Source: Mycobacterium barrassiae
Lineage (GTDB): Bacteria > Actinomycetota > Actinomycetes > Mycobacteriales > Mycobacteriaceae
Direction: 5' to 3'
NCBI RefSeq assembly: GCF_025822765.1
Contig: NZ_JACKUK010000027.1
Span: forward strand, 249,626 to 313,625
DNA length: 64,000 nt
In this document: positions 1 through 16,419 of the stretch, piece by piece
Numbering within the stretch: position 1 is the first letter of the stretch
Layout of the letters: each line of letters opens with the position of its first letter
The notes under the pieces: generated by a model
Told to the model about the DNA's origin: nothing
The model's database searches: none
What the model saw: the letters and a program-made list of their open reading frames with translations, nothing else
Position numbers and translations under genes: made by a program

Positions 1-174
1 GTACCACCGGGTTGAGAAGCCCTGCCAGGTGGTTCGCGAGCGGCCGGCGTTGAACGAGTAGAGCACCGCGATGACGACCGGCAGCAGCGACCAGACCACG
101 TAGCCGATGGTGATCGCGATCAGGAATCGTGGTGGCCGCCACGGGTTGTTCCACCACGCGACCGGACCTCTCAT
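1..174 (-). CDS. ABC transporter permease, PotC-like (partial, 3' end outside window)
   Basis: Only the first 58 codons lie in the window. The ATG at 174 overlaps the stop of the upstream permease as ATGA, the usual sign of translational coupling. The visible part has a basic, Trp/Pro-rich N-terminus followed by one hydrophobic segment (about residues 20-42, containing IGYVVWSLLPVVIAVLYSF) and then a short periplasmic-type stretch, as in the second permease (PotC/type-2 inner membrane component) of spermidine/putrescine-type importers. It follows the substrate-binding protein and the PotB-like permease in one operon. Substrate cannot be read from the sequence. Confidence 0.85.
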   Translation of the reverse strand, partial: MRGPVAWWNNPWRPPRFLIAITIGYVVWSLLPVVIAVLYSFNAGRSRTTWQGFSTRWY

Positions 175-1112
175 GTCGACACCTCGCTGCCCCGTGTCAC
201 CGAACGCAGGTAGTAGAGCATCGGCAGCAATGCGATGAGGAATACCAGCATGACGAACGCCCCGGCCTGACCGGTTTGGCCGGGGGCCTGTACGCCGTCG
301 TTGATCAGGTTGCCGACCATGGTCGTTTTCGGCGATGCCGACAACATGTCGTTGGTGAAGTAGTCGCCGAGCATCGGCAGACAGGTCAGCAGCAGCGCCG
401 CCACGATCGTGGGCCGGCACAACGGCAGTGTTACGCGCCAGAACGACGAGAAGCGGTCGGCGCCAAGGTCACGCGACGCCTCGAGCATCGGCTGCGAAAG
501 TCGGTCGAGGCCGGCATACAGAGGCAGGATCATGTACGGGACATAGCCGTACACGAGCCCGAGGATCACCACCACGGGTTGACCGGTCAGCCATTTGATG
601 TCCGGCGTGAAGAGGCCGCCGAAGCTGAGCACCTTGTTCAAGAGCCCGTCGTCCTGCAGCAGGTTCACCCACGCGAACATCCGCATCATGTAGCTGATCC
701 AGAACGGCGCGATCAACAGCGCGAGCAACAACCCCTTGCGCTTCCCGGCGAGCCGGGCCACGTAGTACGAGACCGGGAAGGCGATGAGTAGGCACAGCGC
801 ACTGGCCACCAGCACGTAGACGAACGTGCGCATGATCGCCGGGCCGTACACACCGTTCTCGCCGACGATGTGGGTCAGCACATAGGTGAACTGGGTGGGA
901 TCCCACTCGAGTGGGTTCCACACCGGGATGGGCGTGCGGAACAGCGGATCGATCTGACCGAAGACGATGCACAACACCACATAAAGCGGGAAGAGGAAAA
1001 ACACGCACAGCCAGACGATTCCGGGCGCGGCCAGCACGGCCCACACCCGATTGCCACGCTCCCGGGCCGGTGGAGCCTGCCGCGACGGCGCGGCGACTAC
1101 CGGGACCGCCAC
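171..1112 (-). CDS. ABC transporter permease, PotB-like
   Basis: A 313-residue inner-membrane permease of the spermidine/putrescine (PotB) type. A Pro/Arg-rich cytoplasmic N-terminus leads to TM1 (about 24-50), and five or so further hydrophobic segments follow. The EAA loop that contacts the ATPase is visible from about residue 211 (EASRDLGADRF..FWRVTLPL). The start is a GTG at 1112, six bases after the stop of the binding-protein gene, with an AAGAAG stretch upstream. It overlaps the PotC-like gene by four bases. With the PotD-like protein, the PotC-like permease and the PotA-like ATPase at 3845 it would form a complete importer. Confidence 0.92.
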   Translation of the reverse strand: MAVPVVAAPSRQAPPARERGNRVWAVLAAPGIVWLCVFFLFPLYVVLCIVFGQIDPLFRTPIPVWNPLEWDPTQFTYVLTHIVGENGVYGPAIMRTFVYVLVASALCLLIAFPVSYYVARLAGKRKGLLLALLIAPFWISYMMRMFAWVNLLQDDGLLNKVLSFGGLFTPDIKWLTGQPVVVILGLVYGYVPYMILPLYAGLDRLSQPMLEASRDLGADRFSSFWRVTLPLCRPTIVAALLLTCLPMLGDYFTNDMLSASPKTTMVGNLINDGVQAPGQTGQAGAFVMLVFLIALLPMLYYLRSVTRGSEVST

Positions 1113-1118
1113 TGCTTC

Positions 1119-2351
1119 TTACGACCCGCCGCCGGCCTGGAAGGCCTGCCACACGTTGCGCCAGGCGGTCTCGTTGGCGGCATCGAGTTCCAGCAACCGG
1201 TAGCCGTTGTCGAAGTACTCGGGTCGCACGATCGCCGACTGCAGGTGCTCCGGGATGAACTCCTCTTGGACAAGGGAATCCGGGGTTATGCTGTTCTGCG
1301 GTGGCTGGTAACCGATCGCGGTGAAGTTCTCCATCGCCACCTCGGGATCGAGCATGTGATTGATGAAGAGGTGCGCAAGGACCGGATTCTTGCCGCCGCG
1401 CAGCGTCACGAGCATGTCGTTGTCGACGAGTCCCTTGCCGTCCGAGGGGAACCAGTACCGAAGAATCTCCGGGCCGGTGCCTTCGGGCAGGTAGGACTGC
1501 GCGTTGATGATGTCGCCGGACCACATCTGCGCCAGACCCATCTGTCCGGCGGGCAGGTCGTTGTACATCGTGATGGTGACCTTCGGCGAGGTCGCTTTCA
1601 CCAGCTCCTGCAGTTGCTCACCGACCATCTTCAGATCGTCGGCATTCGATGTGTTGACGTCCGTGATGCCGTTCTTCAGCAGCACCATCGCCATCGCGGT
1701 GTGGAAGTCGTCGAGGATCGCCGTCTTGCCCTTGTACTGCGGATCCCACAGCGATGCATACGGATTGGACAACGCGCCGATATCGGCGGGCACCTGGTCG
1801 GTGCGCCAACCGATTCCGGTCGTGTAGATGGTGTACGGCACGCTGTACTGCCAACCCTGGTCGTACCACGGGTTGGTGAAGCTGGGCCACACGTTCTTGA
1901 TGTTGGGAATGTAGGAGTGGTTCAGCGGACGCAGCAGCCCGCCGTTCACCAGGCGGCTGATCTCCGTGTAGTTGGCGTTGTAGATGTCGAAGTCCACACC
2001 GCTGCGAAGCTTGGTGATCGCCTCGTCGCCGTCGTTGAAAGTCGACACCTCGATCTTGATGCCGTACTTGTCCTCGAAGCTCTTCATCGCCTGCGGGCTG
2101 AGGTAGTCGGCGTAGTTGTAGATCTTGAGCGTCGCGCCCTTCTCCGGCGCGAGACCGTCGGCGATCGGCTTGTTGTCGTCGGCGATCGGCCATTTCACCG
2201 GATTGTCCGGCGAGGCGAGAGTCAGGCTGGGCCCTCCCGATGAAGGTCCCGACTTCGAGCACGCCGCGAGGAATGCGGGCAGGGACGGCGCCGCGGCGGC
2301 GAGAACCGCTGCGCGCACCAGAAACTGCCGGCGGCTCGGAGGTGTGGGCAT
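1119..2351 (-). CDS. Polyamine-type ABC transporter substrate-binding lipoprotein (PotD-like)
   Basis: A 410-residue extracytoplasmic solute-binding protein of the PotD/PotF family. The N-terminus has a twin-arginine motif (SRRQFL, residues 6-11), an Ala-rich hydrophobic core and a lipobox LAAC ending at Cys31, so it is probably a Tat-exported lipoprotein. Family-type segments include IYNYADYLSPQAMKSFE and GVDFDIYNANYTEISRLV. The ATG at 2351 has a strong GGGAGG ribosome-binding site. It is the first gene of the leftward operon, with a palindromic operator about 50 bases upstream. Linkage to amine-oxidising enzymes suggests an amine ligand; the exact substrate is not determined. Confidence 0.92.
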   Translation of the reverse strand: MPTPPSRRQFLVRAAVLAAAAPSLPAFLAACSKSGPSSGGPSLTLASPDNPVKWPIADDNKPIADGLAPEKGATLKIYNYADYLSPQAMKSFEDKYGIKIEVSTFNDGDEAITKLRSGVDFDIYNANYTEISRLVNGGLLRPLNHSYIPNIKNVWPSFTNPWYDQGWQYSVPYTIYTTGIGWRTDQVPADIGALSNPYASLWDPQYKGKTAILDDFHTAMAMVLLKNGITDVNTSNADDLKMVGEQLQELVKATSPKVTITMYNDLPAGQMGLAQMWSGDIINAQSYLPEGTGPEILRYWFPSDGKGLVDNDMLVTLRGGKNPVLAHLFINHMLDPEVAMENFTAIGYQPPQNSITPDSLVQEEFIPEHLQSAIVRPEYFDNGYRLLELDAANETAWRNVWQAFQAGGGS

Positions 2352-2401
2352 TGGGACCTCCCGTTGATTTCGCGCCTTGTTGCTGGTAGGACTCTCGCAT
2401 A

Positions 2402-2417
2402 GACTGAATGCTCAGTC
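2402..2417. promoter_or_regulatory. TetR/BetI-type operator, copy 1
   Basis: The sequence GACTGA-ATGC-TCAGTC is a perfect 6-bp inverted repeat with a 4-bp spacer. It lies between the divergent PotD-like gene (start 2351) and the aminotransferase gene (start 2443). The same palindrome occurs at 11826-11841, with 21 of 22 flanking bases shared, and with one mismatch at 5702-5717. It resembles the TTGA-N6-TCAA core I recall for BetI operators. It is inferred to be the target of the TetR protein at 4980-5639. Confidence 0.75.
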
Positions 2418-2442
2418 AACCGTTGCGGAGTGGAGGTTCGAC

Positions 2443-3828
2443 GTGTCCCCGTCGGTGGTGGAGTCCAAGGCGGCTGACACCGTAGACCAGCTGATTCTCG
2501 ATGAGGAGAAGCGCTTTTTGCGGCGCCAGCCGCGCAGCACGGAACTCATCACCCGAGCGCGCGAACACCTCGCCGGCGGCGCGACGTCGAACTGGCAGAT
2601 CGCCGAGCCGCAGGCCGTGTGGATGAGCCACGGGAAGGGCTCGAAGGTCTACGACGTCGACGGCAACGAGTACGTCGACATGCACGGCGGTTACGGCGCT
2701 TCCATTGCCGGGCATGCGCACCCGGCGATCGTCGAAGCGGTCAGTGACCGGGTCCGGCGCGGTACGCATTTCGCCCAACCGACTGAGGACGCCATCTGGA
2801 TCGCCGGCGAGTTGGCGCGGCGGTTCGATCTTCCGCTGTGGCGGTTCGCCAACTCCGGCACCGAGGCGACCATGGATGCGGTGCATCTGGCACGCTCACT
2901 GACGGGCCGCGATCTGATCATCAAGGTCGAGGGCTGCTATCACGGCCACCATGATTCCGTACAGGTGTCTGTCCTTCCGGAGGCCGACGAAGTCGGACCG
3001 CGCGAGCACCCCACGCCGGTGCCCGGCAACTCCGGTATCCCCACCGCGATCCGCGATCTCGTGATCGTGGTGCCGTTCAACGACGCCGAAGCGGTGGCTC
3101 GCGCGCTCGCCGAGCACCGCGGGCAGGTGGCCGCGATGATCCTCGAGCCCGTGATGATGAACGCCGGCATCATCCCGCCCGACGCCGGCTATCTCGCCGC
3201 CATCCGCGAGCTGGTGCACGCCGAAGGCGCACTCCTGATCTACGACGAGGTGAAGACCGGCTTCACCACCGGGCCGGGCGGCGTGACAGCGCGCAGCGGC
3301 GTGGTCCCCGACATGGTCTGCCTTGCCAAGGCATTGGGCGGCGGTATCGCGGTCGCGGCGATCGGCGGCACCCGCCAGGTGATGTCGGCGATCGCCGACG
3401 GCCGCTACGAACAGGTCGGCACGTTCAACGGGAACCCGCTGGCGATGGCGGCCACTCGCGCCACGTTGACCGACGTGTTGACCCCGCAGGCCTACGCACA
3501 CCTCGACGAACTCGCAGCGCGGCTCTCCGGCTCCCTGGAATCCGTCATCGCGCAGCACGGCGCCGGCTGGCACGTCGTCGTCGCGGGCGCCAAGGGGTGT
3601 GTCACCTTCCGCCGTGACCGCGTGCGCGAGTTTCGGGATTTTCTGGACATTGACGCCCGACTCGGCCACCTGCACTGGCTGATGCAGCACAATGGCGGTG
3701 TGTTTCTCCCGCCGTGGGGGAAGGTGGAGCAATGGTTGTTGTCAGTTCAGCACCAGCGCGACGATGTCGACCGATTCGCCGCGAACTTCGCGAGGTTCGC
3801 CGACGCGGTGATGCCGCCGGTCGCGTGA
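2443..3828 (+). CDS. Class III PLP aminotransferase, glutamate-1-semialdehyde-aminomutase-like
   Basis: A 461-residue fold-type I class III aminotransferase. It shows the cofactor-binding SGTEAT segment (about 138-143), the YHGHHD motif, the DEV aspartate (about 268) and the PLP lysine in CLAKALGGG (about Lys296). The GTG at 2443 is chosen because GGAGG lies six bases upstream and the operator at 2402-2417 would fall inside any longer reading frame. It resembles GSA aminomutase (HemL), but its place between polyamine-type transporter genes makes a catabolic amine or omega-amino-acid transaminase or mutase more likely. The PotA-like gene follows after 16 bases, so they probably form one transcript. 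Confidence 0.88.
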
Positions 3829-3844
3829 ACGAAGGCTGGGCTCG

Positions 3845-4993
3845 GTGACAGGCGGCGAGATCCAACTGCATCAGTTGGTCAAGTCGTTCGACGGCGTCCC
3901 CGCTGTCATGGGCATCGACCTGAATATCCCTGCGGGCAAGTTCTATTCGCTGCTCGGCGCTTCCGGTTGCGGCAAGACCACGACACTGCGGATGATCGCG
4001 GGCTTCGAGAAGCCCGACTCCGGCCGGATCGAGTTGGATGGCCGCGACGTGGCCGCGGATCCACCCCACCGGCGGCCGGTCAACACCGTCTTCCAGACCT
4101 ATGCGTTGTTCCCGTTCATGACGGTCTGGGACAACGTCGCATTCGGATTGAGGTATCAGAAGTCCTCGCGCGAGGAGACCAAGCGCCGGGTCGGCGAGGC
4201 ACTCGAGCTGGTACGGATGAGTGATTTCGCCAAACGGCGTCCGGCTCAGCTGTCCGGCGGCCAGCAGCAGCGGGTCGCGCTGGCCCGGGCCCTGGTGCTG
4301 CGTCCGAGCGTGTTGTTGCTCGACGAGCCCCTCGGCGCGCTGGACGCAAAGCTGCGCAAACAACTGCAACTGGAACTGCGGGCGATGCAGCGCGAGGTCG
4401 GCATCACCTTCGTCTATGTGACGCATGACCAAGAAGAAGCGCTCACGATGAGCGACCAGATCGCAGTGCTGGCGGAGGGCCGCGTCGAACAGGTGGGTCC
4501 ACCGCAGGAGATCTACTCCGCGCCTGCCACCACGTTCGTCGCTGGATTCCTCGGCGCCGCCAACATCTTCGACGCCGTCGTCCTCGAGACGGGTGGCGCG
4601 ACGACGGTCTGCGAAACGCTGAACACGCGTCTCGGCGCGGCCGTCGGCGACTCCGTAGAGCTCGGTGCGGCGGCGATCGTCATCCGGCCCGAACGGATCA
4701 GCCTGCAATCGCCGGGCGAGCCGGTTGGCCAGGGCCGCAACGTGATTGGTGGAGTCGTCTCGGAAGTGGTCTACCTCGGCAACTGCACGCAGGTGCACGT
4801 CGACGTCGGCGCACCGGCTCCGCTGGTGGTCGAGGTGCCTAACCACGCAGGTCCCCGGTCGGTCGCGCATGAACCTGGCGCCCAGGTCAACTGCGTGTGC
4901 ACGCACGACGCAGTGCGGGTACTGCACCGCAGCCAGGCTCAGGTGGTCGCCGATCCGGTGGCCGACGAGGTGAGCGCTCTCACGCCTTCTTGA
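3845..4993 (+). CDS. ABC transporter ATP-binding protein, PotA-like
   Basis: A 382-residue ATPase of the spermidine/putrescine import family. Walker A is GASGCGKTT (38-46), the signature is LSGGQQQR (from 136), Walker B is LLLDEP (157-162), and the switch histidine is in VTHDQEEA. The C-terminal part matches a TOBE regulatory domain, as in PotA. The start is a GTG. It is the ATPase partner for the leftward PotB/C/D-like genes although it sits in the divergent transcript, so the importer is encoded in two half-operons. Its last 14 bases overlap the 3' end of the convergent TetR gene. Confidence 0.92.
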
Positions 4994-5639
4994 CGCGTGC
5001 CCTGCCGTTCACCCGTTTCTTCTCCGGCGCGAGGTTGAGTTCCCGCTCGGCGAATCGCATTGCGATGTCGTAAGCCAGATCCGAGTCGATCTCAGGGTCG
5101 TCGAGTGCCACCTGGATGGAGAGTCCGTCGAGGAGCGCCGCGAATTCCAGCGCGAACATGCGGGGATCGACCTTCGCGTCGAACTCCGACGGGTCCGCCG
5201 ATTTGATCGCATCGACGACCATCGCCCGCCATCGGGCGTCGAGTTCCTCGCGGTCGGACTTGATTTCGTCGTGGCGGAACGCCTGGGCCCAGAGGTCGAA
5301 CCACAGTCCCCACGCGCCGGGGATCTCTTCGCTGCCCTCCCGCACGCACGTCCACCTGATCAGCAACGACAGCCGCTCGCGTAGCGCGGAGACCTCACGC
5401 AACATCTCCTCGGCCGCCGAGTAGAACGACTCCTCCGAAAACCGCAATGCGTCGACCAGCAGGCGGTCCCGCGTGCCGAAGTAATAGATGACGAGCGCCG
5501 AGCTCACGCCTGCACGCTTGGCTACGTCGGCGATGCGAGTGTCGCCGAAACCACGCTCGCAAATCAGCTCCGCTGCAGCGCGCAGCATCTCGATACGCCG
5601 CGCCTCGTTCTGTTCCGTCGCGGGTGCCGGCTCGGCCAT
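4980..5639 (-). CDS. TetR/AcrR family regulator, BetI-like
   Basis: A 219-residue regulator with an N-terminal TetR helix-turn-helix (about residues 14-60, with [21 protein letters not shown]). The ligand domain carries the [13 protein letters not shown] segment typical of the BetI C-terminal family (TetR_C_6). It is convergent with the PotA-like gene and divergent from the FAD oxidoreductase at 5754. The shared upstream region contains one copy of the palindrome also found at 2402 and 11826, so autoregulation and control of the whole locus are likely. The ligand is unknown; BetI itself senses choline, but nothing here proves that for this protein. Confidence 0.9.
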
Positions 5640-5701
5640 TGTCGTGTCCGTTCCCCTCCGAAGTGCATCGTTGCTCTTGTCTGGAGCCTATCACTTCGTT
5701 A

Positions 5702-5717
5702 GATTGAACAGTCAGTC
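5702..5717. promoter_or_regulatory. TetR/BetI-type operator, copy 2 (one mismatch)
   Basis: GATTGA-ACAG-TCAGTC is the same 6-4-6 inverted repeat as at 2402 and 11826, with one imperfect base in the left arm. It lies in the divergent region between the TetR gene (start 5639) and the FAD oxidoreductase gene (start 5754). It is the natural site for TetR autoregulation. Confidence 0.65.
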
Positions 5718-5753
5718 AGGCCGCACGGCGGCGTCGACGAAAGTAGGACTTCC

Positions 5754-7376
5754 ATGTCGAACAATTACGACGCCATCGTCGTCGGTGGCGGCCACAACGG
5801 GCTGGTGTCCGCGGCTTACCTCGCCCGGTCGGGCGCCAGAACCCTCGTCCTGGAAGGTCGCGGGTCGCTCGGCGGAGCGGCCACCACGGAGGCTCCCTGG
5901 GACGACGCTCCCCACCTGCGAGTGACTCGGCTGTCGTACGTGATGAGTCTGATGCCACCGACTATCGTGCGGGAGCTTCAACTCGAACGGCACGGGTACA
6001 AGGTGCACCCGATGGGCCCGTCCTATCAGGCGTTTCCCGAGGGCGGCTCGCTGATCATCTACGAGGACGACCCCAAGCGCACGCACGAGCAGGTGTCGAA
6101 GTTCTCCAAGAAGGACGCCGACGCGCTGCCAGAGTACTACGAGTGGATCGGCGGCATCGCCGAGGTGATGGGACCGCTGCTGACGCAGGTGCCGCCCAAT
6201 ATCGGCTCCAAGCGGCCGTCCGATCTTCTCGACTTGGCCAAGCTGGCGTGGCCGCTGCGCAAGAAGATCACACCGCGCCTCACCGCGGACATCACTCGAC
6301 TGCTCACCATGAGCATCGCCGACCTTCTCGACGACTGGTTTGAATCACCGCAAGTCAAAGGTCTGATGGCGGTCAACGGCATCATCGGGACCTGGGCCGG
6401 GCCGTGTGAGCCGGGAACCGCCTACGTGATGGCCCACCATTCGATCGGAGACGTGGGCGACGGCCAGCTCGGCAGCTGGGGCTACCCGGAGGGTGGCATG
6501 GGCGGGGTATCTGAAGCGATTGCGCGATCGGCGAAGAGCTTCGGTGCCGAGATCCGCACCAACGCAAGGGTTTCCCGGGTGTTGACCCGCGGTGGCCAGG
6601 TGCGGGGTGTGGTTCTGGCGAACGGCGAAGAGATCACCGCGCCGGTTGTCGTCACCACGCTGCATCCGAAGATTGCCTTCCTCGAACACCTTTCGCCGTC
6701 CGAACTGCCTGACGACTTCGTCGCCGACATCGAGCACTTCAAGACGCGCAGCGGCGTCGTGAAGATCAACGTCGCACTCTCGGAGCTACCGAGCTTCACC
6801 GCGAATCCCAGTTCAGGGATCGCCGAGCATCTCACCGGTTCGATCGAGATGGCGCCGACCATGGAGTACCTGGAAGCCGCTTTCCAGGACGCGCGTGTCG
6901 GTAGACCCGCGGTGCTGCCGTTCAGTGACGGCGTCATCCCGACAACGTTGGACAAGACGTTGAATCCCGATGGCACCCATATCATGTCGCTGTTCACCCA
7001 ATGGGTGCCCGCCGAGTGGGCGAACGAACCGCACACCGAGGAGCTCGACGCCTACGCCGACCGCGTGATCGACACCTATGACCAGGTAGCACCCGGCTTC
7101 AAAGCATCGATCACACACCGCGACGTCGTCGGCCCGTACGAAATGGAGCAGGAGTATGGCCTGATCGGCGGCAACATCTTCCACGGTGAACTGTCGCTGG
7201 AGCAACTGTTCCACATGCGGCCCGCGCCCGGGTACGCCGACTACCGCACGCCGATCAAGGGGCTGTACAACGGCAGCTCGGGCACGCACGCCGGCGGTGG
7301 AGTCTGCGGAATTCCCGGATGGCAGGCGGCGGGTGCGGCGTTGGCGGACAAGAAGCGTCGCTTCGGGCGGCGATGA
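5754..7376 (+). CDS. FAD-dependent oxidoreductase, phytoene-desaturase/amine-oxidase-like
   Basis: A 540-residue flavoprotein with an N-terminal Rossmann dinucleotide-binding motif (VVGGGHNGL, from residue 9, with the ribose-binding Glu in LVLEGR). The body and the C-terminal FAD contact region (YNGSSGTHAGGGVCGIPGW) are of the phytoene desaturase/NAD(P)-FAD oxidoreductase type. Such proteins oxidise hydrophobic or amine substrates; no carotenoid genes are nearby. It is the first gene of a rightward operon behind operator copy 2. Its stop overlaps the start of the acyl-CoA synthetase gene as ATGA. The substrate is presumably linked to the neighbouring transporter, but this is inference. Confidence 0.88.
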   Translation: MSNNYDAIVVGGGHNGLVSAAYLARSGARTLVLEGRGSLGGAATTEAPWDDAPHLRVTRLSYVMSLMPPTIVRELQLERHGYKVHPMGPSYQAFPEGGSLIIYEDDPKRTHEQVSKFSKKDADALPEYYEWIGGIAEVMGPLLTQVPPNIGSKRPSDLLDLAKLAWPLRKKITPRLTADITRLLTMSIADLLDDWFESPQVKGLMAVNGIIGTWAGPCEPGTAYVMAHHSIGDVGDGQLGSWGYPEGGMGGVSEAIARSAKSFGAEIRTNARVSRVLTRGGQVRGVVLANGEEITAPVVVTTLHPKIAFLEHLSPSELPDDFVADIEHFKTRSGVVKINVALSELPSFTANPSSGIAEHLTGSIEMAPTMEYLEAAFQDARVGRPAVLPFSDGVIPTTLDKTLNPDGTHIMSLFTQWVPAEWANEPHTEELDAYADRVIDTYDQVAPGFKASITHRDVVGPYEMEQEYGLIGGNIFHGELSLEQLFHMRPAPGYADYRTPIKGLYNGSSGTHAGGGVCGIPGWQAAGAALADKKRRFGRR

Positions 7377-9397
7377 GCGAAGCGCGGCGCGCGGCGGTCG
7401 CCGCTATGCTCGGCGCCCGATCGATCGCCGTCGTCGGTGCCAGCCCCCGAGAGGACACATTCGGCTCCCGGATGGTCATCGAGGCCCAACGTGGCTCGGC
7501 GCGTGTGCATCTGGTCAATCCCCGCTACGACCGGATCGGACATGCGCTCTGCGCGCCATCGCTGACCGATCTCGATCACGACGTCGACCTGGTGCTGCTC
7601 GGGGTGCCCGACGGTGCACTGCTCGAGCAGCTGGAGTCCGCCGCCGCAATCGGCGCTCGAGGGGCGGTGCTGTTCGGCTCCGCCCACGGACTGCGCGACA
7701 AGGTCACCGCGATCGCCACGCGCGCGGGCATGGCGGTGTGCGGCGCAGGATGCATGGGCTTCATCAACAACGCCGACGGGGTGCGAGCGTTGGGCTACCT
7801 GGAACCGGATCCCCTGCCCGCCGGCGGAATCAGCCTCATCACGCATTCCGGATCGGCGTTCTCGACGATGCTGCGCGCGCAGCGCGGATTCGGTTTCCGC
7901 CTGGCGGTGTCTTCAGGCCAGGAACTGGTGACCAACACCGCGGACTATGTCGAGTACGCACTCGACGATCCCGACACCCGCATCGTCGCGCTGCTCATGG
8001 AGACACCACGGGACGTGCCGAGACTGCGGACGGCGCTGTTGCGCGCGGCGGCCCAGGGCGTTCCGGTGGTGATCCTGACCGTGGGCGGATCACCTCGGGG
8101 TAAGGCGATGGTCGCGGCACATTCGGGGGCACTGGCAGGTGAGCGCGCCGCATGGGACGCGTTCTGCGCCGCCACCGGCGCCGTCCACGTCAGTGATCTC
8201 GCCGAGTTCGCCGATACGCTGGAATTGTTCTCGGCGACAAGGCGATCCCGCGGCGGCGGCATCGCGACCGTGCACGATTCCGGCGCGGAACGTGCGTTGG
8301 TCGCCGACCTCGCCCACGAACTGGGCGTCGAGTTCGCCGACCTGGCCGACAACACGCTCGCCACTATCGGTGCGCTGCTCGATGACGGACTGGCCGCCAC
8401 CAACCCGTTGGACGTGTGGGGCACGGGTGCCGATACCCGCAACCTGTTCGGCAGCTGCCTGCGTGCGATGGTCGACGACCCTGGCGTCGGCGTCACCGCG
8501 CTCGCGGTCGATCTCGTCACCGAATTCGACGGCGACACCGCCTATGCGGAGGCCGTGCTGGACGTCGCGGCCGAGACGGAGGCGCCGATCGCGGTCGTGG
8601 CATCTGTGTCGTCGGCGATCGATCGGCCAACGGCGCAACGACTGCGCGACAACGGAATCCCCGTGCTCGAGGGTGCCCGTAGTGGGCTGGCCGCGCTGGG
8701 CCATCTCGCGCGTTGGCCGCTCCCCTTCGAGGACGGATCAGCGCCGGGTCGGCGTCGCGACATCCGGACGGGGGCCTCCGCGTCGGAGATCCTCGCCGCC
8801 TACGGGATCCCGGTGGTGGAATCCCGGTCGGCGCATTCGCTCGAGGAGGCGTTGGCAGCAGCCGATGCGGTCGGCTATCCGGTAGCGCTTAAAACGGTTG
8901 GCGTGCTGCATAAGACCGAAGCCGGCGGCGTGGTGCTGGGTATCGCCGATGAGACGGCCTTGACGACGACCTACGAAGCCATGGCGCAGCGACTGGGACC
9001 TGCGGTGACCGTGGAGACGATGGTCGACGGCGGGGTGGAGATCTCGGTGGGGTTCGTGCGGGACGAGGCGTTCGGGCCCTTGGTGGTGGTCGCCGCGGGC
9101 GGCACGCTCGTCGAGCTGATGGAAGACCGTGTGGTGGCATGCCCACCGCTGTCACGCAGCGGCGCCCGACGTCTCCTCGACGGGCTACGTATAGCGCCGC
9201 TGCTGGCGGGATGGCGCGGCGCTCCGGCGGTCGACGTCGGGGCGCTGACCGACGTCATCGTGCGCTTCTCGGAGATGGCGATCGACCTCGAGGATGCGTG
9301 CGACGCGGTCGAGGCCAACCCCGTCATCGCCACAGCCGACGGCGTGATTGCGGTCGACGCGTTGATGATTGCGAAAGAACCACCCCGGTCCCGTTGA
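7373..9397 (+). CDS. NDP-forming acyl-CoA synthetase (acetate-CoA ligase family, fused subunits)
   Basis: A 674-residue protein joining the alpha and beta parts of NDP-forming acyl-CoA synthetases. A CoA-binding Rossmann domain starts the protein (SIAVVGASPRE), followed by succinyl-CoA-ligase-like domains. The phosphohistidine-type motif AHSGALAG lies in the middle, and a C-terminal ATP-grasp domain carries VALKTVGVLHKTEAGGVVLGI-like contacts. The ATG at 7373 is chosen because it overlaps the preceding stop (ATGA); a longer frame to 7319 would run well into the upstream gene. It probably interconverts an acyl-CoA and free acid with ATP or ADP at the end of the pathway. Confidence 0.9.
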   Translation: MSEARRAAVAAMLGARSIAVVGASPREDTFGSRMVIEAQRGSARVHLVNPRYDRIGHALCAPSLTDLDHDVDLVLLGVPDGALLEQLESAAAIGARGAVLFGSAHGLRDKVTAIATRAGMAVCGAGCMGFINNADGVRALGYLEPDPLPAGGISLITHSGSAFSTMLRAQRGFGFRLAVSSGQELVTNTADYVEYALDDPDTRIVALLMETPRDVPRLRTALLRAAAQGVPVVILTVGGSPRGKAMVAAHSGALAGERAAWDAFCAATGAVHVSDLAEFADTLELFSATRRSRGGGIATVHDSGAERALVADLAHELGVEFADLADNTLATIGALLDDGLAATNPLDVWGTGADTRNLFGSCLRAMVDDPGVGVTALAVDLVTEFDGDTAYAEAVLDVAAETEAPIAVVASVSSAIDRPTAQRLRDNGIPVLEGARSGLAALGHLARWPLPFEDGSAPGRRRDIRTGASASEILAAYGIPVVESRSAHSLEEALAAADAVGYPVALKTVGVLHKTEAGGVVLGIADETALTTTYEAMAQRLGPAVTVETMVDGGVEISVGFVRDEAFGPLVVVAAGGTLVELMEDRVVACPPLSRSGARRLLDGLRIAPLLAGWRGAPAVDVGALTDVIVRFSEMAIDLEDACDAVEANPVIATADGVIAVDALMIAKEPPRSR

Positions 9398-9425
9398 GGC
9401 GCGCATACTCCGACTCGGAGGCGTC

Positions 9426-10259
9426 ATGACGAAGCAATTCGACGGCAAAGTTGTATTCATTACGGGGGCGGCGCGCGGCCAAGGGCGTTCTCACGCGGTG
9501 CGATTCGCAGAAGAGGGAGCGAACATCATCGCCTTCGATCTGTGCGACCAGATCGACTGCGTGGGCTATCCGATGGCCACGCCGGAAGACCTCGACGAGA
9601 CCGTCAACCTCGTCGAGAAGACCGGGCAGCGCATCGTCGCCGAACAGGGCGACGTCCGTGATTTCGTAAGGCTCAAAGCGGCGGTGGCCAGCGGTGTCGC
9701 CGAGTTCGGGCGCATCGACTTCGTCCTCGCCAACGCCGGTATCGCACCGGTCATCAGCCCCGGCGCCGACGAGATGCAGTCATTCGTCGACGCCGTCGAC
9801 GTGATGCTCAAGGGGGTCTACTACGCCATCGAAGCGTCGCTACCCGCGATGCTTTCCCACGGCGACGGCGGGGCCATCGTCATCACGAGCTCCGTCGCGG
9901 GACTGTCCGGAATGCGGTTGAGGTTCGACCAGAAGCAACACGGCTTGATGGGTTACGCCGCGGCCAAGCACGGTGTGGTCGGGCTGATGCGGGGCTACGC
10001 GAATATGCTCGCCGAGAAGAACATTCGTGTCAACAGCGTCCATCCGACAGGTGTCGCCAGCCCGATGATCGTCAACCCGCAGGTCGAACAGCTGATGGCC
10101 GAACGCCCCGAGTACGCGGCGATCTTCGAGAACCTGCTTCCGGTGCCGATGATCGAACCGATCGACATCAGCGAGGCGATGGTCTACCTCTGCGGGGCAT
10201 CGGGCCGCTATATCACCGGGATCACGCTGCCTGTCGACGCGGGGTGGACGGCGAAGTAG
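9426..10259 (+). CDS. Mycofactocin-type SDR family oxidoreductase
   Basis: A 277-residue short-chain dehydrogenase. The nucleotide motif is GAARGQGRSHA near residue 12, and the catalytic YAAAK follows SSVAGLSG. An insertion after the second beta strand (DLCDQ...YPMATPEDLDETVNLVEKTG) is the hallmark of mycofactocin-coupled SDRs (TIGR03971), which hold NAD tightly and pass electrons to mycofactocin. The ATG at 9426 has a GGAGG site just upstream; 28 bases separate it from the previous gene. It is likely the alcohol or aminoalcohol dehydrogenase step. No mycofactocin biosynthesis genes are in the window. Confidence 0.9.
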   Translation: MTKQFDGKVVFITGAARGQGRSHAVRFAEEGANIIAFDLCDQIDCVGYPMATPEDLDETVNLVEKTGQRIVAEQGDVRDFVRLKAAVASGVAEFGRIDFVLANAGIAPVISPGADEMQSFVDAVDVMLKGVYYAIEASLPAMLSHGDGGAIVITSSVAGLSGMRLRFDQKQHGLMGYAAAKHGVVGLMRGYANMLAEKNIRVNSVHPTGVASPMIVNPQVEQLMAERPEYAAIFENLLPVPMIEPIDISEAMVYLCGASGRYITGITLPVDAGWTAK

Positions 10260-10262
10260 CTC

Positions 10263-10607
10263 TCAGAAGATCGAATAGACCTTGCGCACCGTCTCGTGCA
10301 ATTCCCAGGTGCCCTTCCAACCGATCGGGAACACCGCGACGTCGCCTGCCTTGATCTCTGCGGGTTCTCCCCCGTCTGGGGTCACAGTCATCCGGCCCGA
10401 CAAGACATAGATGACCTCGTTCTCGTCCTGAACCCAGTAGGACGGCCCCGCGGTGCATTGCCAGATGCCCGCGGACTTGTCGCCGTCCACCCAGATCTCC
10501 AGACCGTGCGTCGCCATCGGGCCGCCGGTCGCTTCGGCAAGCGGGCCCCAGTCTTCGAGTTCGGCGTCAGCGGCCTTGGCAAGTAGCGCGGTATCGATCG
10601 TGTTCAC
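10263..10607 (-). CDS. Cupin domain protein
   Basis: A 114-residue single-domain cupin of the Cupin_3 (DUF861) type. The barrel motif is centred on DENEVIYVLSGRMTV and AGDVAVFPIGWKGTWE. Such small cupins are often isomerases, binding proteins or ureidoglycine-aminohydrolase relatives; the exact role is not evident. Its ATG overlaps the stop of the FAD oxidoreductase gene by four bases (ATGA), so it is the second gene of a two-gene leftward operon behind operator copy 3. It ends three bases from the convergent SDR stop. Confidence 0.85.
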   Translation of the reverse strand: MNTIDTALLAKAADAELEDWGPLAEATGGPMATHGLEIWVDGDKSAGIWQCTAGPSYWVQDENEVIYVLSGRMTVTPDGGEPAEIKAGDVAVFPIGWKGTWELHETVRKVYSIF

Positions 10608-11824
10608 AATGTCGCTTTCTCCGGGAAGGGTAGTGAGATCGGTTCTGGGGCAACACGACTGTTGCCGTCGGCGTCGAAGCGGTCCAGCCCGAGATCGGTC
10701 AGATCAAGCCATGTACAGATGCCCGTCGTCGTCAGATCGGCGGCCACCTGCGCGACCGCGGGACCCCACATCATGCCGTGACCCGCCGGGCTGGCCACCA
10801 CCGTTCCCTCGACCGGACCGTCGTCGGTCAGCAGCGGCCCGAGGATGGGCAGGTGGTCGGGGGTGTAGTCGATGGTCGCCGCCCACGACCGCTTCAGCCC
10901 CAGTCCCGCGACCGCGGGGAACAGCTCCTCGATACGGTCGCGCATCTTGCGGTAGTAGACGGTGTCGAAGTCCGTCGCCACACCCGGCGGTTCCTCCGGG
11001 TTGCTCATCCCCCATAGCAGTCCCCCGGATTCCCCTGGCCGCCAGTAGATTCCGGAGCTGACGTCGAACACCATCGGCAGCTCGTTGACGTCGACACCCG
11101 GGACCGGCGCGGTGACCACCACCTGGTGGCGGGTGCCGCCGGCGTGGATACGACCGCCTGCAGCGCGGCCGACATCGGCCAGTTGCGGTCCACCCGTCAG
11201 GACGACGTGTGGTGTGTCGATCGGGCCTGCCGACGTGTCGACGCCGACGACGCGGCCGCCCGCGGCGCGAAGGCCGGTGAAGCTGCACCGTTCGCGTACC
11301 TCGACGCCGCATGCGGTGAGTGCGGCCGTGTATGCGAGCACGTTTCGCGGCGCGTCGATGTATCCGTCACCGGGGGCGTACGACGCACCCAGCGTTACGC
11401 CTCGCGCGAGGCCGGTGTCCCGGTCGTCGAGATCGTCGGCGGACAGCCATTCGACGTCGAGGCCGAGAGAATTCTGCAATGCGATGCGATCGTGTGCCTG
11501 CTGCACTTCGGCCGGGGTGAAACACGGCATCAGGTAGCCCTGTGCCACGAAGCCACAGTCCAGCGGGAATCGGTCTCCGCTGGCGGCGTAGAACTCCTGG
11601 GTGCGAAGACCCAGCTTGATGGCGGTTTCGGTACCGCCCTGGGCCCGCACCATGCCCGCGGCGCGGCTGCTGGCGCCTTCGCCGAGGGTTCGGGCCTCGA
11701 GCAGCACGACCTTGCGATCGCCGCTTTCGGCGAGCAGTACGGCCGTCCACGCCCCGACCGTGCCGCCGCCCACCACCACGACATCGGCACTGTGGGAGCT
11801 GGTCATAGCATGGAACGCTGGCAT
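10604..11824 (-). CDS. FAD-dependent oxidoreductase, DAO family (glycine/D-amino acid oxidase-like)
   Basis: A 406-residue (400 if started at the internal ATG at 11806) flavoprotein of the DadA/glycine-oxidase/sarcosine-oxidase family. The FAD motif is VVVVGGGTVGAW near the N-terminus, and the C-terminal segment SPAGHGMMWGPAVAQ is typical of DAO proteins. These enzymes oxidise C-N bonds of secondary or primary amines, which fits an amine-catabolic locus. Neither start has a clear Shine-Dalgarno; the ATG at 11824 begins two bases from the operator at 11826-11841, so the message may be leaderless or nearly so. It is divergent from the acyl-CoA dehydrogenase. Confidence 0.88.
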   Translation of the reverse strand: MPAFHAMTSSHSADVVVVGGGTVGAWTAVLLAESGDRKVVLLEARTLGEGASSRAAGMVRAQGGTETAIKLGLRTQEFYAASGDRFPLDCGFVAQGYLMPCFTPAEVQQAHDRIALQNSLGLDVEWLSADDLDDRDTGLARGVTLGASYAPGDGYIDAPRNVLAYTAALTACGVEVRERCSFTGLRAAGGRVVGVDTSAGPIDTPHVVLTGGPQLADVGRAAGGRIHAGGTRHQVVVTAPVPGVDVNELPMVFDVSSGIYWRPGESGGLLWGMSNPEEPPGVATDFDTVYYRKMRDRIEELFPAVAGLGLKRSWAATIDYTPDHLPILGPLLTDDGPVEGTVVASPAGHGMMWGPAVAQVAADLTTTGICTWLDLTDLGLDRFDADGNSRVAPEPISLPFPEKATL

Positions 11825-11825
11825 A

Positions 11826-11841
11826 GACTGAACGCTCAGTC
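11826..11841. promoter_or_regulatory. TetR/BetI-type operator, copy 3
   Basis: GACTGA-ACGC-TCAGTC is a perfect 6-bp inverted repeat with a 4-bp spacer, flanked by CATA and CAA exactly as in copy 1. It lies between the divergent DAO oxidoreductase (start 11824) and acyl-CoA dehydrogenase (start 11859). Binding here should occlude both promoters. Confidence 0.75.
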
Positions 11842-11858
11842 AAGAGGTGGAGGTATGG

Positions 11859-13013
11859 ATGTACGGCCTGACGGAGCAAGATCGGCGCATCCGCGATACC
11901 GCGCGAGCGTTCGTCGAAACACTGATGCCGTACGAGGTGGAGGCCGAGCTGGCCGGGGGCGTGCTGGCCAAGGAGATCACTGCCGAGCATCAGGCGCGTG
12001 CAATCGAATTGGGTTTGTATGCCACCAATATGCCGACGTCAGTTGGCGGTCCCGGATACACCGCCCTGCAGCAGGTGCTGGTTCAGGAACAGTGCGGGCG
12101 GGTGACCAACGGATTGGGCTGGGTGATGGCCACGCCGCCGCAGTGGTGGGTTGACGTCGCCACCGACTACCAACGTGAACGCTGGCTCCTGCCGTCGGTG
12201 CGCGGCGAGAAACACGAGGCCTATGCGATCACCGAGGAGTTCGCGGGCTCAGACGTCTCCGCGCTGGTGGCTACCGCCCGACGCGACGGCGACGAATACG
12301 TGATCAACGGGGTCAAGTGGCACGTCACGTCGTTCAACCTCGCCGACTACGTCTTCGTCGAAGCCGTGCTCCCCGACGGCGACCACGTGCTGCTGGTGGT
12401 CGATCTGCCATGGCCGGGCGTGGAAGTGGTTCGCACGCCTCACTATTCGCATCACATCGCCGACGAGCATCCGATCGTCGCGTTCAACGACGTGCGTGTT
12501 CCGCTCGAGAACCTGGTCGGTACCGAGGGCGGTCCGATGCCATTCACCCAGGACTGGTTCCGATTCGAGCGGATGATGGTGGCGGCGCGGTGTGTGGGCG
12601 CGGCGCAGCGCCTCGTCGACGAGACGACCGCGTTCGCGCAGACCCGGATCGTCGATGGCAAGCCGTTGGGCGAGCACCAGTTGGTGGCGGGCATGCTCGC
12701 CGATAATGCGACCGAACTATTCGCCGCCAGAACCATGCTCTACGAGGTGGCCCGGTCGATCGACGCCGGACACGACCGCAAGACACTGCACGGCCAAGCG
12801 TCGATGGCGAAGCTGTACTGCTCGGAGATGGCCGGGCGAGTCGCCGACCGTGCGGTGCAGATCTTCGGCGGCCGTGGCTACATGCGCGAGAACGTCGCCG
12901 AGCGCATGTTCCGCGAGCTTCGCGTGGAACGCATCTGGGAGGGCGCCAGCGAGATCCAGCGGATCATCGTGGGCCGTCAACTGATGACCCGCGGCCCGGC
13001 CGCCCTACTCTAG
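11859..13013 (+). CDS. Acyl-CoA dehydrogenase family protein
   Basis: A 384-residue acyl-CoA dehydrogenase. The FAD/substrate segment YAITEEFAGSDVSAL and the NGVKWHVTSF segment mark the middle beta domain, and the C-terminal helix bundle carries RIWEGASEIQRIIVGRQL with the position of a short-chain-type catalytic Glu. The ATG at 11859 is preferred to the GTG at 11847 because GAGGTGGAGG sits five to six bases upstream of it. It stands alone as the rightward transcript behind operator copy 3. In this locus it could oxidise a CoA ester derived from the imported amine. Confidence 0.9.
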   Translation: MYGLTEQDRRIRDTARAFVETLMPYEVEAELAGGVLAKEITAEHQARAIELGLYATNMPTSVGGPGYTALQQVLVQEQCGRVTNGLGWVMATPPQWWVDVATDYQRERWLLPSVRGEKHEAYAITEEFAGSDVSALVATARRDGDEYVINGVKWHVTSFNLADYVFVEAVLPDGDHVLLVVDLPWPGVEVVRTPHYSHHIADEHPIVAFNDVRVPLENLVGTEGGPMPFTQDWFRFERMMVAARCVGAAQRLVDETTAFAQTRIVDGKPLGEHQLVAGMLADNATELFAARTMLYEVARSIDAGHDRKTLHGQASMAKLYCSEMAGRVADRAVQIFGGRGYMRENVAERMFRELRVERIWEGASEIQRIIVGRQLMTRGPAALL

Positions 13014-13020
13014 TTTTGTT

Positions 13021-13073
13021 GCGATTTCGGCGTGCTGGGTCACGCTGAGCGGTACCCAGCACGCCGAAATCGC
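13021..13073. terminator. Bidirectional hairpin between convergent acyl-CoA dehydrogenase genes
   Basis: Two perfect 20-bp inverted arms (13021-13040 and 13054-13073) enclose a 13-base loop in the 64-base gap between convergent genes. The transcript would form a very strong stem from either strand. There is no long U-tract. The stem is far longer than a minimal terminator, so it may also be a copy of a dispersed mycobacterial palindrome. Confidence 0.7.
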
Positions 13074-13077
13074 TGGT

Positions 13078-14220
13078 TTAGAGGCCGAGGTCGCGGCCGA
13101 TGATTTCCTTCATGATCTCGGTCGTGCCGCCGAAGATCGTCTGGATACGTCCGTCGACGTAGTCGCGGGCGACGCGATACTCAAGCATGTAGCCGTAGCC
13201 GCCGTGCAGCTGCACGCACCGGTCGACGACCTTCTTTGCGACCTCCGTGGCCCACCACTTCGCCTTGGCCGCCTCCACGGCGGTCAGCTCACCGTCGACG
13301 ACACCCTGCAGGCACCGGTCGATGTACTGCTCAGTGACTTCGAGTTCGGTGTCCATCTCGGCGAGCAGGAACCGGTTGTGCTGGAAGCTGCCGATCGGCT
13401 GGCCGAACGCCTTGCGGTCCTTGGCGTACTGCAGTGTCTGACGCCAGGTTTCACGCGCGCCGGCGATCGCGCTGATCGCGATCGAGAGCCGCTCCGACGG
13501 CAGGTTCTGCATCAGGTGGTAGAAGCCGCGACCTTCCTTGCCCAGCAGGTTGGCGCTCGGCACGCGGACGTTCTCGAAGTGCAGCTCCGAGGTGTCCTGC
13601 GCGTGCAAACCCATCTTGTCGAGCTTGCGACCGCGGGTGAAGCCCGGCATGTCGCGTTCGACGACCAGCAGGCTGAAGCCCTTGTGGCCGGCTTCGGGAT
13701 CGGTACGGGCAACCACCACGACGAGGTCGCTGTTGATGCCCGATGAAATGAATGTCTTGGAGCCGTTGACGATCCAGTCGTCGCCGTCGCGCACGGCCGA
13801 GGTACGGATACCGGCCAGGTCGCTGCCTGCGCCGGGTTCCGTCATCGCGATCGCGATGATCGTCTCGCCGCTGGCGATGCCCGGCAGCCAGCGCTGCTTC
13901 TGCTCGTCGTTGCAGAGGTCCTTGAAGTACGGGCCGACGACGTCGTTGTGCAGGCTCAGCGCGGGACCGTGCACACCGGCCTTGGCGATCTCCTCGTCGA
14001 TGATCGCGTTGAACCGGAAGTCGTCGGAACCGCCGCCCCCGAACTCCTCGGGCATGTTGAACCCGATCAGCCCGTACTTACCTGCCGCAACATAGGCCGA
14101 CCGATCGACGATGCGCTCGGCCTCCCACTTCTCGTGGTTGGGCACGAGCTCGCGCTCGATGTATTCACGGACGGTGTCGCGGAACGCTTCGTGCTCGGCG
14201 TCGTAAATCGTGCGCTTCAA
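13078..14220 (-). CDS. Acyl-CoA dehydrogenase (long-chain/isovaleryl type)
   Basis: A 380-residue acyl-CoA dehydrogenase with AMTEPGAGSDLAGI and GSKTFISSG in the beta domain and IQTIFGGTTEIMKEIIGRDL at the C-terminus. The C-terminal catalytic position is Gly-Gly rather than Glu-Gly, so the base is expected in NLPSERLSIA, as in long-chain and isovaleryl enzymes. The start is a TTG at 14220 with GGGAA upstream. It is the third gene of a leftward beta-oxidation operon, after thiolase and crotonase, and is likely controlled by the divergent FadR/GntR regulator. Confidence 0.92.
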   Translation of the reverse strand: MKRTIYDAEHEAFRDTVREYIERELVPNHEKWEAERIVDRSAYVAAGKYGLIGFNMPEEFGGGGSDDFRFNAIIDEEIAKAGVHGPALSLHNDVVGPYFKDLCNDEQKQRWLPGIASGETIIAIAMTEPGAGSDLAGIRTSAVRDGDDWIVNGSKTFISSGINSDLVVVVARTDPEAGHKGFSLLVVERDMPGFTRGRKLDKMGLHAQDTSELHFENVRVPSANLLGKEGRGFYHLMQNLPSERLSIAISAIAGARETWRQTLQYAKDRKAFGQPIGSFQHNRFLLAEMDTELEVTEQYIDRCLQGVVDGELTAVEAAKAKWWATEVAKKVVDRCVQLHGGYGYMLEYRVARDYVDGRIQTIFGGTTEIMKEIIGRDLGL

Positions 14221-14227
14221 TGTCTTT

Positions 14228-14254
14228 CCCTTACTTCGCTTACTTTGCTTACTT
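14228..14254. repeat. Three 9-bp tandem units between crotonase stop and acyl-CoA dehydrogenase start
   Basis: The units CCCTTACTT, CGCTTACTT and TGCTTACTT follow each other without gaps, differing only in the first two bases. On the coding strand they read as repeats of AAGTAAGNN, the first of which carries the crotonase TAA stop. The last unit, AAGTAAGGG, contributes the ribosome-binding region of the next gene. Confidence 0.8.
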
Positions 14255-15046
14255 GGCTTTCCAGACTGGCTGGCGCTTCTCTGCGAAGGCCAGCGGTCCT
14301 TCTTTGGCGTCCTCGGAACGAATCACGGTGCCGATTTCGCGCATGGTCCTGGTCCAGCCGGGCTCATCGCCGACGATGACGCCGTCGTCGACGCCCATCG
14401 CGACCCTCTTGCTCGCCCATACCGCAAGCGGCGCATTGCAAGTGATCCGCTCGGCGAGCGCGAGCGCCGCCTCGACCGCGGTGCCGTCGGGTACGACTTC
14501 GTTGATCAGACCCCACTTCAGGGCGTCGGCCGAACTCATCGGCTCGCCGGTGAACAGCAGCTCCATCGCGGCCTTGCGGGGCAGGTGGTCGACGATGCGG
14601 AACACACCGCCCGCGGCGGCGATCAGACCGCGCTTCACCTCAGGCAACCCGAACTTGGCCCGCTCTTCGGCGACGACGAGATCGCTGGCGAGTGCGAGTT
14701 CGGTTCCGCCTCCGAGCGCGGTGCCGTTGACCGCGGCGATGGTGGGCTTGTCGATGTAGTGGTGGACGTATCCGGCGAAGCCCCAATCGGCGTGGTCGGG
14801 ATGGAACAAGTTCTCCCGCCGCGAGATGGCCTTCAAATCAGCACCGGCGCAGAAAGATTCGCCGGCGCCGGTGATGACGACGGCCCGGACCTCGGGATCG
14901 TCCTGTGCTGCCTGCAGCGCATCGCCCACAGCGGTGCTCACCGCACTGTTGACGGCGTTACGGGCCTCCGGCCGGTTGAGCGTGATGATGAGGACGTTTC
15001 CCCGCCGCTCGGTGAGAGCGGCGGGGGCGGTGACGTCCGTTGTCAC
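14249..15046 (-). CDS. Enoyl-CoA hydratase/isomerase family protein (crotonase)
   Basis: A 265-residue crotonase. The oxyanion-hole segment is FCAGADLKA, and both catalytic glutamates of enoyl-CoA hydratase are present, in ALGGGTELALASD and in FGLPEVKRG. The GTG at 15046 is chosen because it overlaps the thiolase stop as GTGA; a longer frame would run back into the thiolase gene. It forms the middle gene of the thiolase-crotonase-dehydrogenase operon, giving three core activities of a beta-oxidation cycle. No separate 3-hydroxyacyl-CoA dehydrogenase is adjacent. Confidence 0.92.
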   Translation of the reverse strand: MTTDVTAPAALTERRGNVLIITLNRPEARNAVNSAVSTAVGDALQAAQDDPEVRAVVITGAGESFCAGADLKAISRRENLFHPDHADWGFAGYVHHYIDKPTIAAVNGTALGGGTELALASDLVVAEERAKFGLPEVKRGLIAAAGGVFRIVDHLPRKAAMELLFTGEPMSSADALKWGLINEVVPDGTAVEAALALAERITCNAPLAVWASKRVAMGVDDGVIVGDEPGWTRTMREIGTVIRSEDAKEGPLAFAEKRQPVWKAK

Positions 15047-16200: not shown

Positions 16201-16254
16201 GACCCTTCTCCTTTGAAAGTCGTGTTTTCCCGAAGGTAGAGCAACGTAGTTTAC

Positions 16255-16278: not shown

Positions 16279-16419
16279 GTGGGATACCTCTCACGCTACG
16301 CCGGACAGAAACTCCAACCACCTGCGCGTATACGCACTGCCCATGAACCTAGCGTCCCACATGGTTTACTGAGTTGCATAGCTGGCTGTACCGCCAGTCA
16401 CCTTTTCCGGGAGTAAGCA

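Follow-up and report, generated by a model that had tools for sequence, protein, structure and literature searches.

The locus and its three palindromic operators

The DNA analysed here, a window of 64,000 nucleotides from Mycobacterium barrassiae, holds a locus at which genes for a PotABCD-type ABC importer, an aminotransferase, several oxidoreductases, an acyl-CoA ligase and an acyl-CoA dehydrogenase (fadE1) are arranged around three divergent intergenic regions, one of which adjoins the gene of a TetR-family regulator. Each of these regions carries one copy of the palindrome GACTGA-N4-TCAGTC (the short form, GAYTGANNNNTCAGTC). Our pattern scan agrees with the original prediction, made from the letters of the window, that the copies at 2402 and 11826 are perfect palindromes and the one at 5702 carries a single mismatch, and the gene map of the window confirms that each copy lies between divergent genes. 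The first and third copies have 21 of 22 bases in common (CATAGACTGAATGCTCAGTCAA versus CATAGACTGAACGCTCAGTCAA), again as had been claimed, and there is no further copy, nothing else in the window matching at two mismatches or fewer. With up to three mismatches there are 21 places, 18 of them with three mismatches, which is below the shuffle mean of 28.1; the signal is therefore confined to the near-perfect copies.

Over the whole genome of the organism (5,900,227 bases in 49 contigs), the exact GAYTGANNNNTCAGTC occurs at three places, all at this locus. Allowing one mismatch adds five places elsewhere, and at that stringency a reversed control pattern yields two forward and three reverse matches, versus seven and eight for the true pattern. 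Because the control also matches at one mismatch, the 12 specified bases alone are not fully specific. The long form of the site, the 20-mer TWGAYTGANNNNTCARTCWA at one mismatch or fewer, recovers exactly these three sites, with none for its control. Thus, the genome-wide motif scan proposed with the original prediction finds a motif that is not randomly distributed, with the exact pattern only at these three places in 5.9 Mb.

The TetR regulator and its association with the sites

The regulator combines a TetR N-terminal helix-turn-helix domain (PF00440, 44.6 bits against a cut-off of 24) with the BetI-type C-terminus that had been ascribed to it (PF13977, 73.2 bits against 27); a PADLOC search with this protein gave no match at E 1e-10. 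The operator adjoining its own gene, operator 2, is a near-palindrome that is kept in relatives and whose core, GATTGAACAGTCAGTC, is nearly unvarying across the genus.

We examined 396 genomes of the genus, the source genome included, calling the TetR at E-values up to 1e-30. It is present in 71 of these, and 63 of the 71 have at least three long-form sites, versus one of the 325 TetR-negative genomes, so that the scan of relatives likewise finds the motif tied to the TetR gene. The TetR-negative genomes together hold 62 long sites (0.19 each), and the lone exception among them, G132, carries three sites that are all imperfect, each on a contig of its own. There are eight TetR-positive misses: G004, G275, G189, G078, G159, G396, G150 and G283. 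In the last two, two sites pass the long pattern and the short-pattern strand count is 2 + 3, as in the three-site set; the other six are weighed below. Exact pairs of the core are also seen in G013 and G059, where this TetR is not found at the cut-off used. G013 was considered as a site carrier and dropped, having no 20-mer match.

Loci were mapped as L066-L105 and L116-L189. Some genomes enter this set twice (for example as L090 and L116), and locus counts are for this reason not genome counts. In L097 and L124 the tetR label is absent from the locus maps, yet a search finds the TetR in both. Within 300 bp upstream of tetR, a site with at most two mismatches is present in 71 of the 77 loci examined. 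The recognition helix ALVIYYFGT is near-invariant in an alignment of 32 TetR sequences, and in a few cases of a lost or altered site it has changed: two of the six misses are L169, with the substitution A48P (PLVIYYF), and L072 (ALVFYHF), while in L073 the helix is ALVIYYFKT and the site reads TTAACTGAATATTCAGTCAA. These changes, few as they are, would fit this TetR reading this site. The remaining misses are L186, taken up below, and L187-L189, weak partial TetR hits that keep ALVIYYFG with no site upstream.

Conservation of the divergent gene pairs

The motif is conserved upstream of orthologous genes, with the same gene pairs in mapped relatives and few exceptions. The usual neighbours are a pot gene and the aminotransferase gene at operator 1, tetR and the CrtO-like oxidoreductase or acyl-CoA ligase gene at operator 2, and the DAO oxidase gene and fadE1 at operator 3. 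Among the exceptions, L105 has the cupin gene next to operator 3 and an extra operator 23 bp from operator 1, L181 shows neither the aminotransferase gene nor fadE1, and in the Gordonia locus L179 neither the DAO gene nor operator 3 is called. Displacement of gene blocks has mostly left the sites in their usual divergent regions: in G035 and G009 a distance of 11-12 kb separates operator 3 and the DAO/fadE1 block from operator 2 (6 kb in the window), and in G033 they are on a separate contig. Beyond the genus, and within the stretch that each locus covers, a Propionibacteriales metagenome-assembled genome (L171) and Nocardioides (L173, L175, L177, L180, L182 and L183) show the layout, and it is kept more weakly in Gordonia jinhuaensis (L179), where operator 1 has two mismatches. 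The TetR is 50-60% identical in these Nocardioides, metagenome-assembled and Gordonia loci.

Column conservation was computed over those sites of L116-L170 that have sufficient flanking sequence and no more than one mismatch (n = 51, 54 and 29 for operators 1, 2 and 3). It averages 0.97, 0.98 and 1.00 across the three operators versus 0.55, 0.54 and 0.66 in the flanks, values inflated at the specified bases by the mismatch limit used to select the sites, which has to be set against the interpretation below together with the points gathered there. At the N positions, which lie outside this selection, 11 of 12 columns reach at least 0.90; the exception, at 0.57, is the second N of operator 1.

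Predicted promoters

Our promoter calls rest on mycobacterial promoter rules, which are looser than the E. coli consensus. At each operator the predicted plus-strand -10 (TAGACT or TAGATT) begins two bases ahead of the 16-bp core. At operators 1 and 2 of the window it is preceded, at a spacing of 17 bp, by a TTGT-type -35, and TTGTCG occupies this place in 30 of the 51 operator-1 regions. On the minus strand, TTGACT stands at the operator edge in 47 of 51 operator-1 and all 29 operator-3 regions, and 17 bp after it an nAnnnT hexamer follows in 45 of 51 and 29 of 29, respectively. The DAO gene begins with an ATG at 11806, 8 bp past the predicted -10, which would fit a leaderless start. Operators 1 and 3 thus appear to span a plus-strand -10 and a minus-strand -35, so that one dimer could block both promoters.

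A probable local repressor for three divergons

We consider it highly likely, from this comparison of sequences, that a local, autoregulated TetR repressor acts on the three operators in environmental mycobacteria and in some related actinobacteria. A TetR dimer would bind each of the three copies of the palindrome TWGAYTGA-N4-TCARTCWA, and the bound operator would cover the plus-strand -10 (TAGAYT) at every divergon. At the outer two operators it would also cover the minus-strand TTGACT -35, one bound site thereby closing both directions. Release of the TetR by an inducer, which is probably the amine substrate or a product formed early in its breakdown, would switch on the genes of the importer and catabolic enzymes as well as tetR at the same time. 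The original prediction of one local regulator for the locus thus draws support from the whole-genome count, the co-occurrence with the TetR and the conserved gene pairs, from which we infer control by it. The regulon itself appears to be new, its type, the local TetR regulon, being already known, and it is well supported by comparison. It is also a clean candidate for a single palindrome that serves two divergent promoters at once and is kept across genera.

Several observations weigh against this reading. Fisher's test for the co-occurrence gives p ~5e-63, which overstates the evidence because it treats related species as independent. The 71 TetR-positive genomes of that test retain G004, whose TetR is in two pieces, and G275, which has a 41% paralogue. 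G078, G159 and G396 have the tetR-side site only, despite the presence of the TetR, and G189, with a TetR that is 66% identical and has a changed helix, has kept no site. L186 has an unchanged helix and a three-mismatch site upstream of tetR, and retains the tetR/CrtO-like pair despite having no better site; since L186-L189 keep the helix without a good site, the helix string alone does not predict the site. In L185, fadE1 intervenes between operator 1 and the aminotransferase gene and there is no Rieske motif. Finally, a sigma-70 consensus scan of the E. coli type over 2200-12100 reported no promoter, for which reason the promoters proposed above depend on mycobacterial rules and conservation.

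The sites might instead belong to another regulator encoded elsewhere, with the local TetR reading something else. TGA-N4-TCA-type cores are common in the TetR family, and similar sites of the form TTGATTGAC...TCAATCAA lie beside other genes in mycobacteria without this TetR, both of which count in favour of such a regulator. However, occurrence of at least three sites tracks the TetR gene (63/71 versus 1/325), a site adjoins tetR even in G159 (= L068), where of the whole locus only tetR and operator 2 are found, and changes of the helix accompany loss or change of the site in L169, L072 and L073. We accordingly rate another regulator as improbable. We give about equally little credence to the idea that the TetR activates rather than represses, or represses its own gene only. 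Some members of the family are indeed activators, and operator 2, the tetR-side site, is kept although it is unlike the other two and a less perfect palindrome; against this, the predicted -10 is covered at all three operators, the classical position for a repressor. That the three copies reflect chance, or a recent duplication of a promoter cassette, with no regulatory meaning is suggested by the 21 of 22 bases common to copies 1 and 3, but the same places are kept across the genus and in other genera while the flanks diverge, which leaves this reading next to no probability. Chance origin of the sites is ruled out by the whole-genome counts and the conservation.

The proposed regulated gene set and its candidate substrate

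The features of the locus are collected in Table 1. The set controlled by the proposed repressor would comprise the PotABCD-type importer, a group V-like Rieske oxygenase, an aldehyde dehydrogenase of the aminobutyraldehyde type, the DAO-type amine oxidase, the class III aminotransferase, the NDP-forming acyl-CoA ligase and the acyl-CoA dehydrogenase. The transporter and enzymes named in the original prediction are encoded in the gene groups around the sites. The extent given there stands only in part: the regulon appears larger than the window, since the potD operon runs on to its left, and the short-chain dehydrogenase (SDR) is rarely at this position in relatives, being seen among the mapped loci only in the window and in L077 (G063).

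Table 1. Genes, operators and predicted promoter elements of the locus (window positions, except where a locus is named)
Feature	Position	Strand	Remarks
PotB-like ABC permease	171..1112	-	profile scans
PotD/PotF-like substrate-binding protein	1119..2351	-	profile scans; operon runs on left of the window
Left extension of potD operon	L197, 8321 to 12046	-	second permease, aldehyde dehydrogenase, Rieske oxygenase
Predicted promoter, aminotransferase-potA operon	2377..2405	+	TTGTTG, 17 bp, TAGACT; -10 overlaps operator 1
Predicted promoter, potD operon	2391..2419	-	TTGACT (in operator 1), 17 bp, GAGAGT
Operator 1, TAGACTGAATGCTCAGTCAA	2400..2419	.	between potD and aminotransferase gene; core GACTGAATGCTCAGTC at 2402-2417, 0 mismatches
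Class III aminotransferase, glutamate-semialdehyde-aminomutase type	2443..3828	+
PotA-type ABC ATPase	3845..4993	+	TIGR01187, 392.8 vs cut-off 355.6
TetR-family regulator, BetI-type C-terminal domain	4980..5639	-	PF00440 + PF13977; proposed repressor of the three operators and its own gene
Predicted promoter, CrtO-like/acyl-CoA ligase/SDR operon	5677..5705	+	TTGTCT, 17 bp, TAGATT; -10 overlaps operator 2
Predicted tetR -10, TAGGCT	5685..5690	-	9 bp from operator 2; in 40/54 operator-2 regions
Operator 2, TAGATTGAACAGTCAGTCAG	5700..5719	.	between tetR and CrtO-like oxidoreductase gene; core at 5702-5717, 1 mismatch
CrtO/CrtI-like FAD oxidoreductase	5754..7376	+
NDP-forming acyl-CoA ligase	7373..9397	+
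Mycofactocin-coupled SDR	9426..10259	+	TIGR03971, 354.2 vs 300
EutQ-like cupin	10263..10607	-
DAO-family FAD oxidase (sarcosine/dimethylglycine/glycine oxidase type)	10604..11806	-
Predicted promoter, DAO gene	11815..11843	-	TTGACT (in operator 3), 17 bp, CAGCGT
Operator 3, TAGACTGAACGCTCAGTCAA	11824..11843	.	between DAO-type oxidase gene and fadE1; core GACTGAACGCTCAGTC at 11826-11841, 0 mismatches
Predicted fadE1 -10, TAGACT	11824..11829	+	in operator 3; -35 GGTCAT at 11801-11806 weak
Acyl-CoA dehydrogenase (fadE1)	11856..13013	+

The operon left of the window contains another ABC permease (PF00528), placed where potC would be expected, and an aldehyde dehydrogenase that just passes the PRK13473 aminobutyraldehyde dehydrogenase cut-off (617.4 versus 615), missing the stricter TIGR03374 (483.2 versus 909.3) and staying below both BetB cut-offs (419.4 versus 668.6 and 388.6 versus 593). 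It also contains the Rieske oxygenase, whose closest relatives in the PDB are stachydrine demethylase and an unnamed relative, followed by carnitine monooxygenase. In the source genome this protein has NWKVIAENYQECYHC with CRH...CPYH as its Rieske CxH...CxxH motif, and the Cys-X-X-Cys pair of group V is present. Of 72 loci scanned, 55 show the ECxHC motif, with a Rieske motif just before it in 53 of the 55; the 17 without it include many that are short or cut, but L169 and L185 are neither. In many relatives the Rieske gene adjoins the pot genes. Nothing in Rfam matches window positions 1-16500 at the gathering score.

For most mapped relatives, no counterparts of the genes right of 13,013 were found at this position. 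On the minus strand of the window, 13078-16200 encodes a second acyl-CoA dehydrogenase, an enoyl-CoA hydratase and a thiolase; among the mapped loci the full trio occurs in L078 and L090/L116, and L077, which ends at that point, has the dehydrogenase. Because few mapped loci carry them, these genes are probably not part of the core regulon.

As to the substrate, this gene set supports a compound class and not an identity. We lean toward a quaternary or N-methylated amine, such as the betaine of an omega-amino acid. After import, such a compound would undergo demethylation or C-N cleavage by the Rieske oxygenase and the DAO enzyme, then transamination, aldehyde oxidation, CoA activation and dehydrogenation. 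The principal rival here, a true regulon for uptake and degradation of the polyamines putrescine and spermidine, is distinctly less likely, although real evidence speaks for it: the transporter is of the PotABCD type and passes TIGR01187, the PDB relatives of the binding protein are largely putrescine/spermidine binders, and the dehydrogenase passes PRK13473. Two further points keep the substrate from being fixed: the closest kin of the importer are polyamine systems, and the oxidases have only distant ties to enzymes that have been characterised. Against the polyamine reading stand the conserved Rieske oxygenase with its ECxHC motif, nearest to stachydrine demethylase and then to carnitine monooxygenase, and the presence of a sarcosine/dimethylglycine-type DAO; we know of no place for such a Rieske oxygenase and DAO in known putrescine routes. 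Moreover, the PotF segment LDDPEE, which we take to be a ligand contact, aligns to LDDFHT in the binding protein of the window.

If a quaternary amine is nevertheless the substrate, we would tentatively go further and propose, as a possibility short of being probable, an undescribed actinobacterial pathway for quaternary ammonium compounds (for example omega-amino-acid betaines such as gamma-butyrobetaine or 5-trimethylaminovalerate) in which a group V Rieske oxygenase, a DAO, a glutamate-semialdehyde-type aminotransferase and a CoA ligase/acyl-CoA dehydrogenase pair would act one after another, and in which one TetR would shut six promoters with three dimers. The operator would then be a barcode for finding this pathway across Actinomycetota. 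Apart from this pathway, the analysis unites a transporter and scattered oxidoreductases in a single proposed regulon whose operator is specific enough for its members to be located in raw genome sequence. It also supplies a testable substrate class for proteins to which family scans give no more than the name of aminotransferase, FAD oxidoreductase or acyl-CoA dehydrogenase.

Relation to known systems

The regulator resembles BetI in its pairing of a TetR_N domain with the BetI-type C-terminal domain, and in the autoregulated layout beside target genes (PMC12442346). It differs in falling below both BetI equivalogs (TIGR03384, 86.2 versus 201.3; NF001978, 80.0 versus 118). The likeness of the site to BetI operators, also part of the original prediction, holds for the TGA-N4-TCA core common to both and fails at the outer bases, which differ from the published box ATTGACG*CGTCAAT (PMC12442346). 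The gene set too departs from the BetI context, neither betA nor betT being among the proteins scanned in the locus. An ordinary BetI/choline regulon is thus rejected by scores, box and gene context.

Local TetR repressors of mycobacterial divergons have been surveyed, with 11 new motifs reported (PMC4482099). The systems described there are alike in having a divergent gene nearby, a palindromic operator and control of enzymes rather than of efflux only, and differ in that three divergons share one operator here; the likeness is one of layout. A Cys-X-X-Cys pair next to the catalytic site defines 'some Group V' Rieske oxygenases (PMC10952381). The enzyme of this locus shares with the group V proteins Stc2, CntA and GbcA the Rieske and catalytic domains and that pair at the catalytic site, and differs from them in its place beside a Pot-type importer and CoA-linked enzymes; identity with the glycine betaine monooxygenase GbcA is rejected by its equivalog (191.2 versus 670). 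The importer has the four-part layout of PotABCD and passes the PotA subfamily cut-off, whereas the PotD (94.8 versus 582), PotF and PotB (139.6 versus 348) equivalog cut-offs are missed by far, and the presumed PotF ligand-contact segment is changed.

Six spellings of the operator were not found in the open-access literature searched. No description of this locus was among the matches listed (open-access titles and abstract openings) for TetR/polyamine regulons, quaternary-ammonium or group V Rieske clusters and BetI operators, nor among those listed for Nocardioides butyrobetaine, M. smegmatis polyamine catabolism, Rhodococcus and Mycolicibacterium TetR regulons.

A distinct palindrome and variants of the locus

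The similar palindrome TTGATTGAC...TCAATCAA occurs in pairs 2-9 kb apart in G140, G342, G403 and G214, all of which are without this TetR. The copies in G140 are at L190 (G140:C1:4356235) and L195 (4358449), and further loci are L191 and L196 (G214:C44) and L193 (G026). The genes beside it encode a zinc alcohol dehydrogenase (L190, L191 and L193), a GMC oxidoreductase (L193) and a nitronate monooxygenase (L196). It probably marks another TetR-type regulon.

Several relatives have rearranged versions of the locus. In L066 (G078), at about 5900-7230 in flipped orientation, a near-full-length tetR and operator 2 are followed by adjoining remnants of the CrtO-like gene and fadE1, with nothing more of the locus found; this looks like a decayed copy from which the middle has been deleted. 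In L067 (G396), at 3981-7319, the TetR and operator 2 lie between a Rieske gene, with 62% identity to its Gordonia counterpart, and an acyl-CoA dehydrogenase gene other than fadE1, to which it has 29% identity. This may be a reduced version of the regulon. In Nocardioides, a two-mismatch site precedes a displaced potA in L173 (about 2562) and L177 (about 2623), both flipped, and is a possible fourth operator. Additional genes lie between the ligase gene and the DAO block, or past the ligase gene, in L075, L076, L079, L081 and L092. These include parts of a sugar-type ABC transporter, recognised by Pfam in L075 and L076 and as BLAST clusters in L079 and L081, a xylose-isomerase-like protein in L076 and L092, and a ROK regulator in L075.

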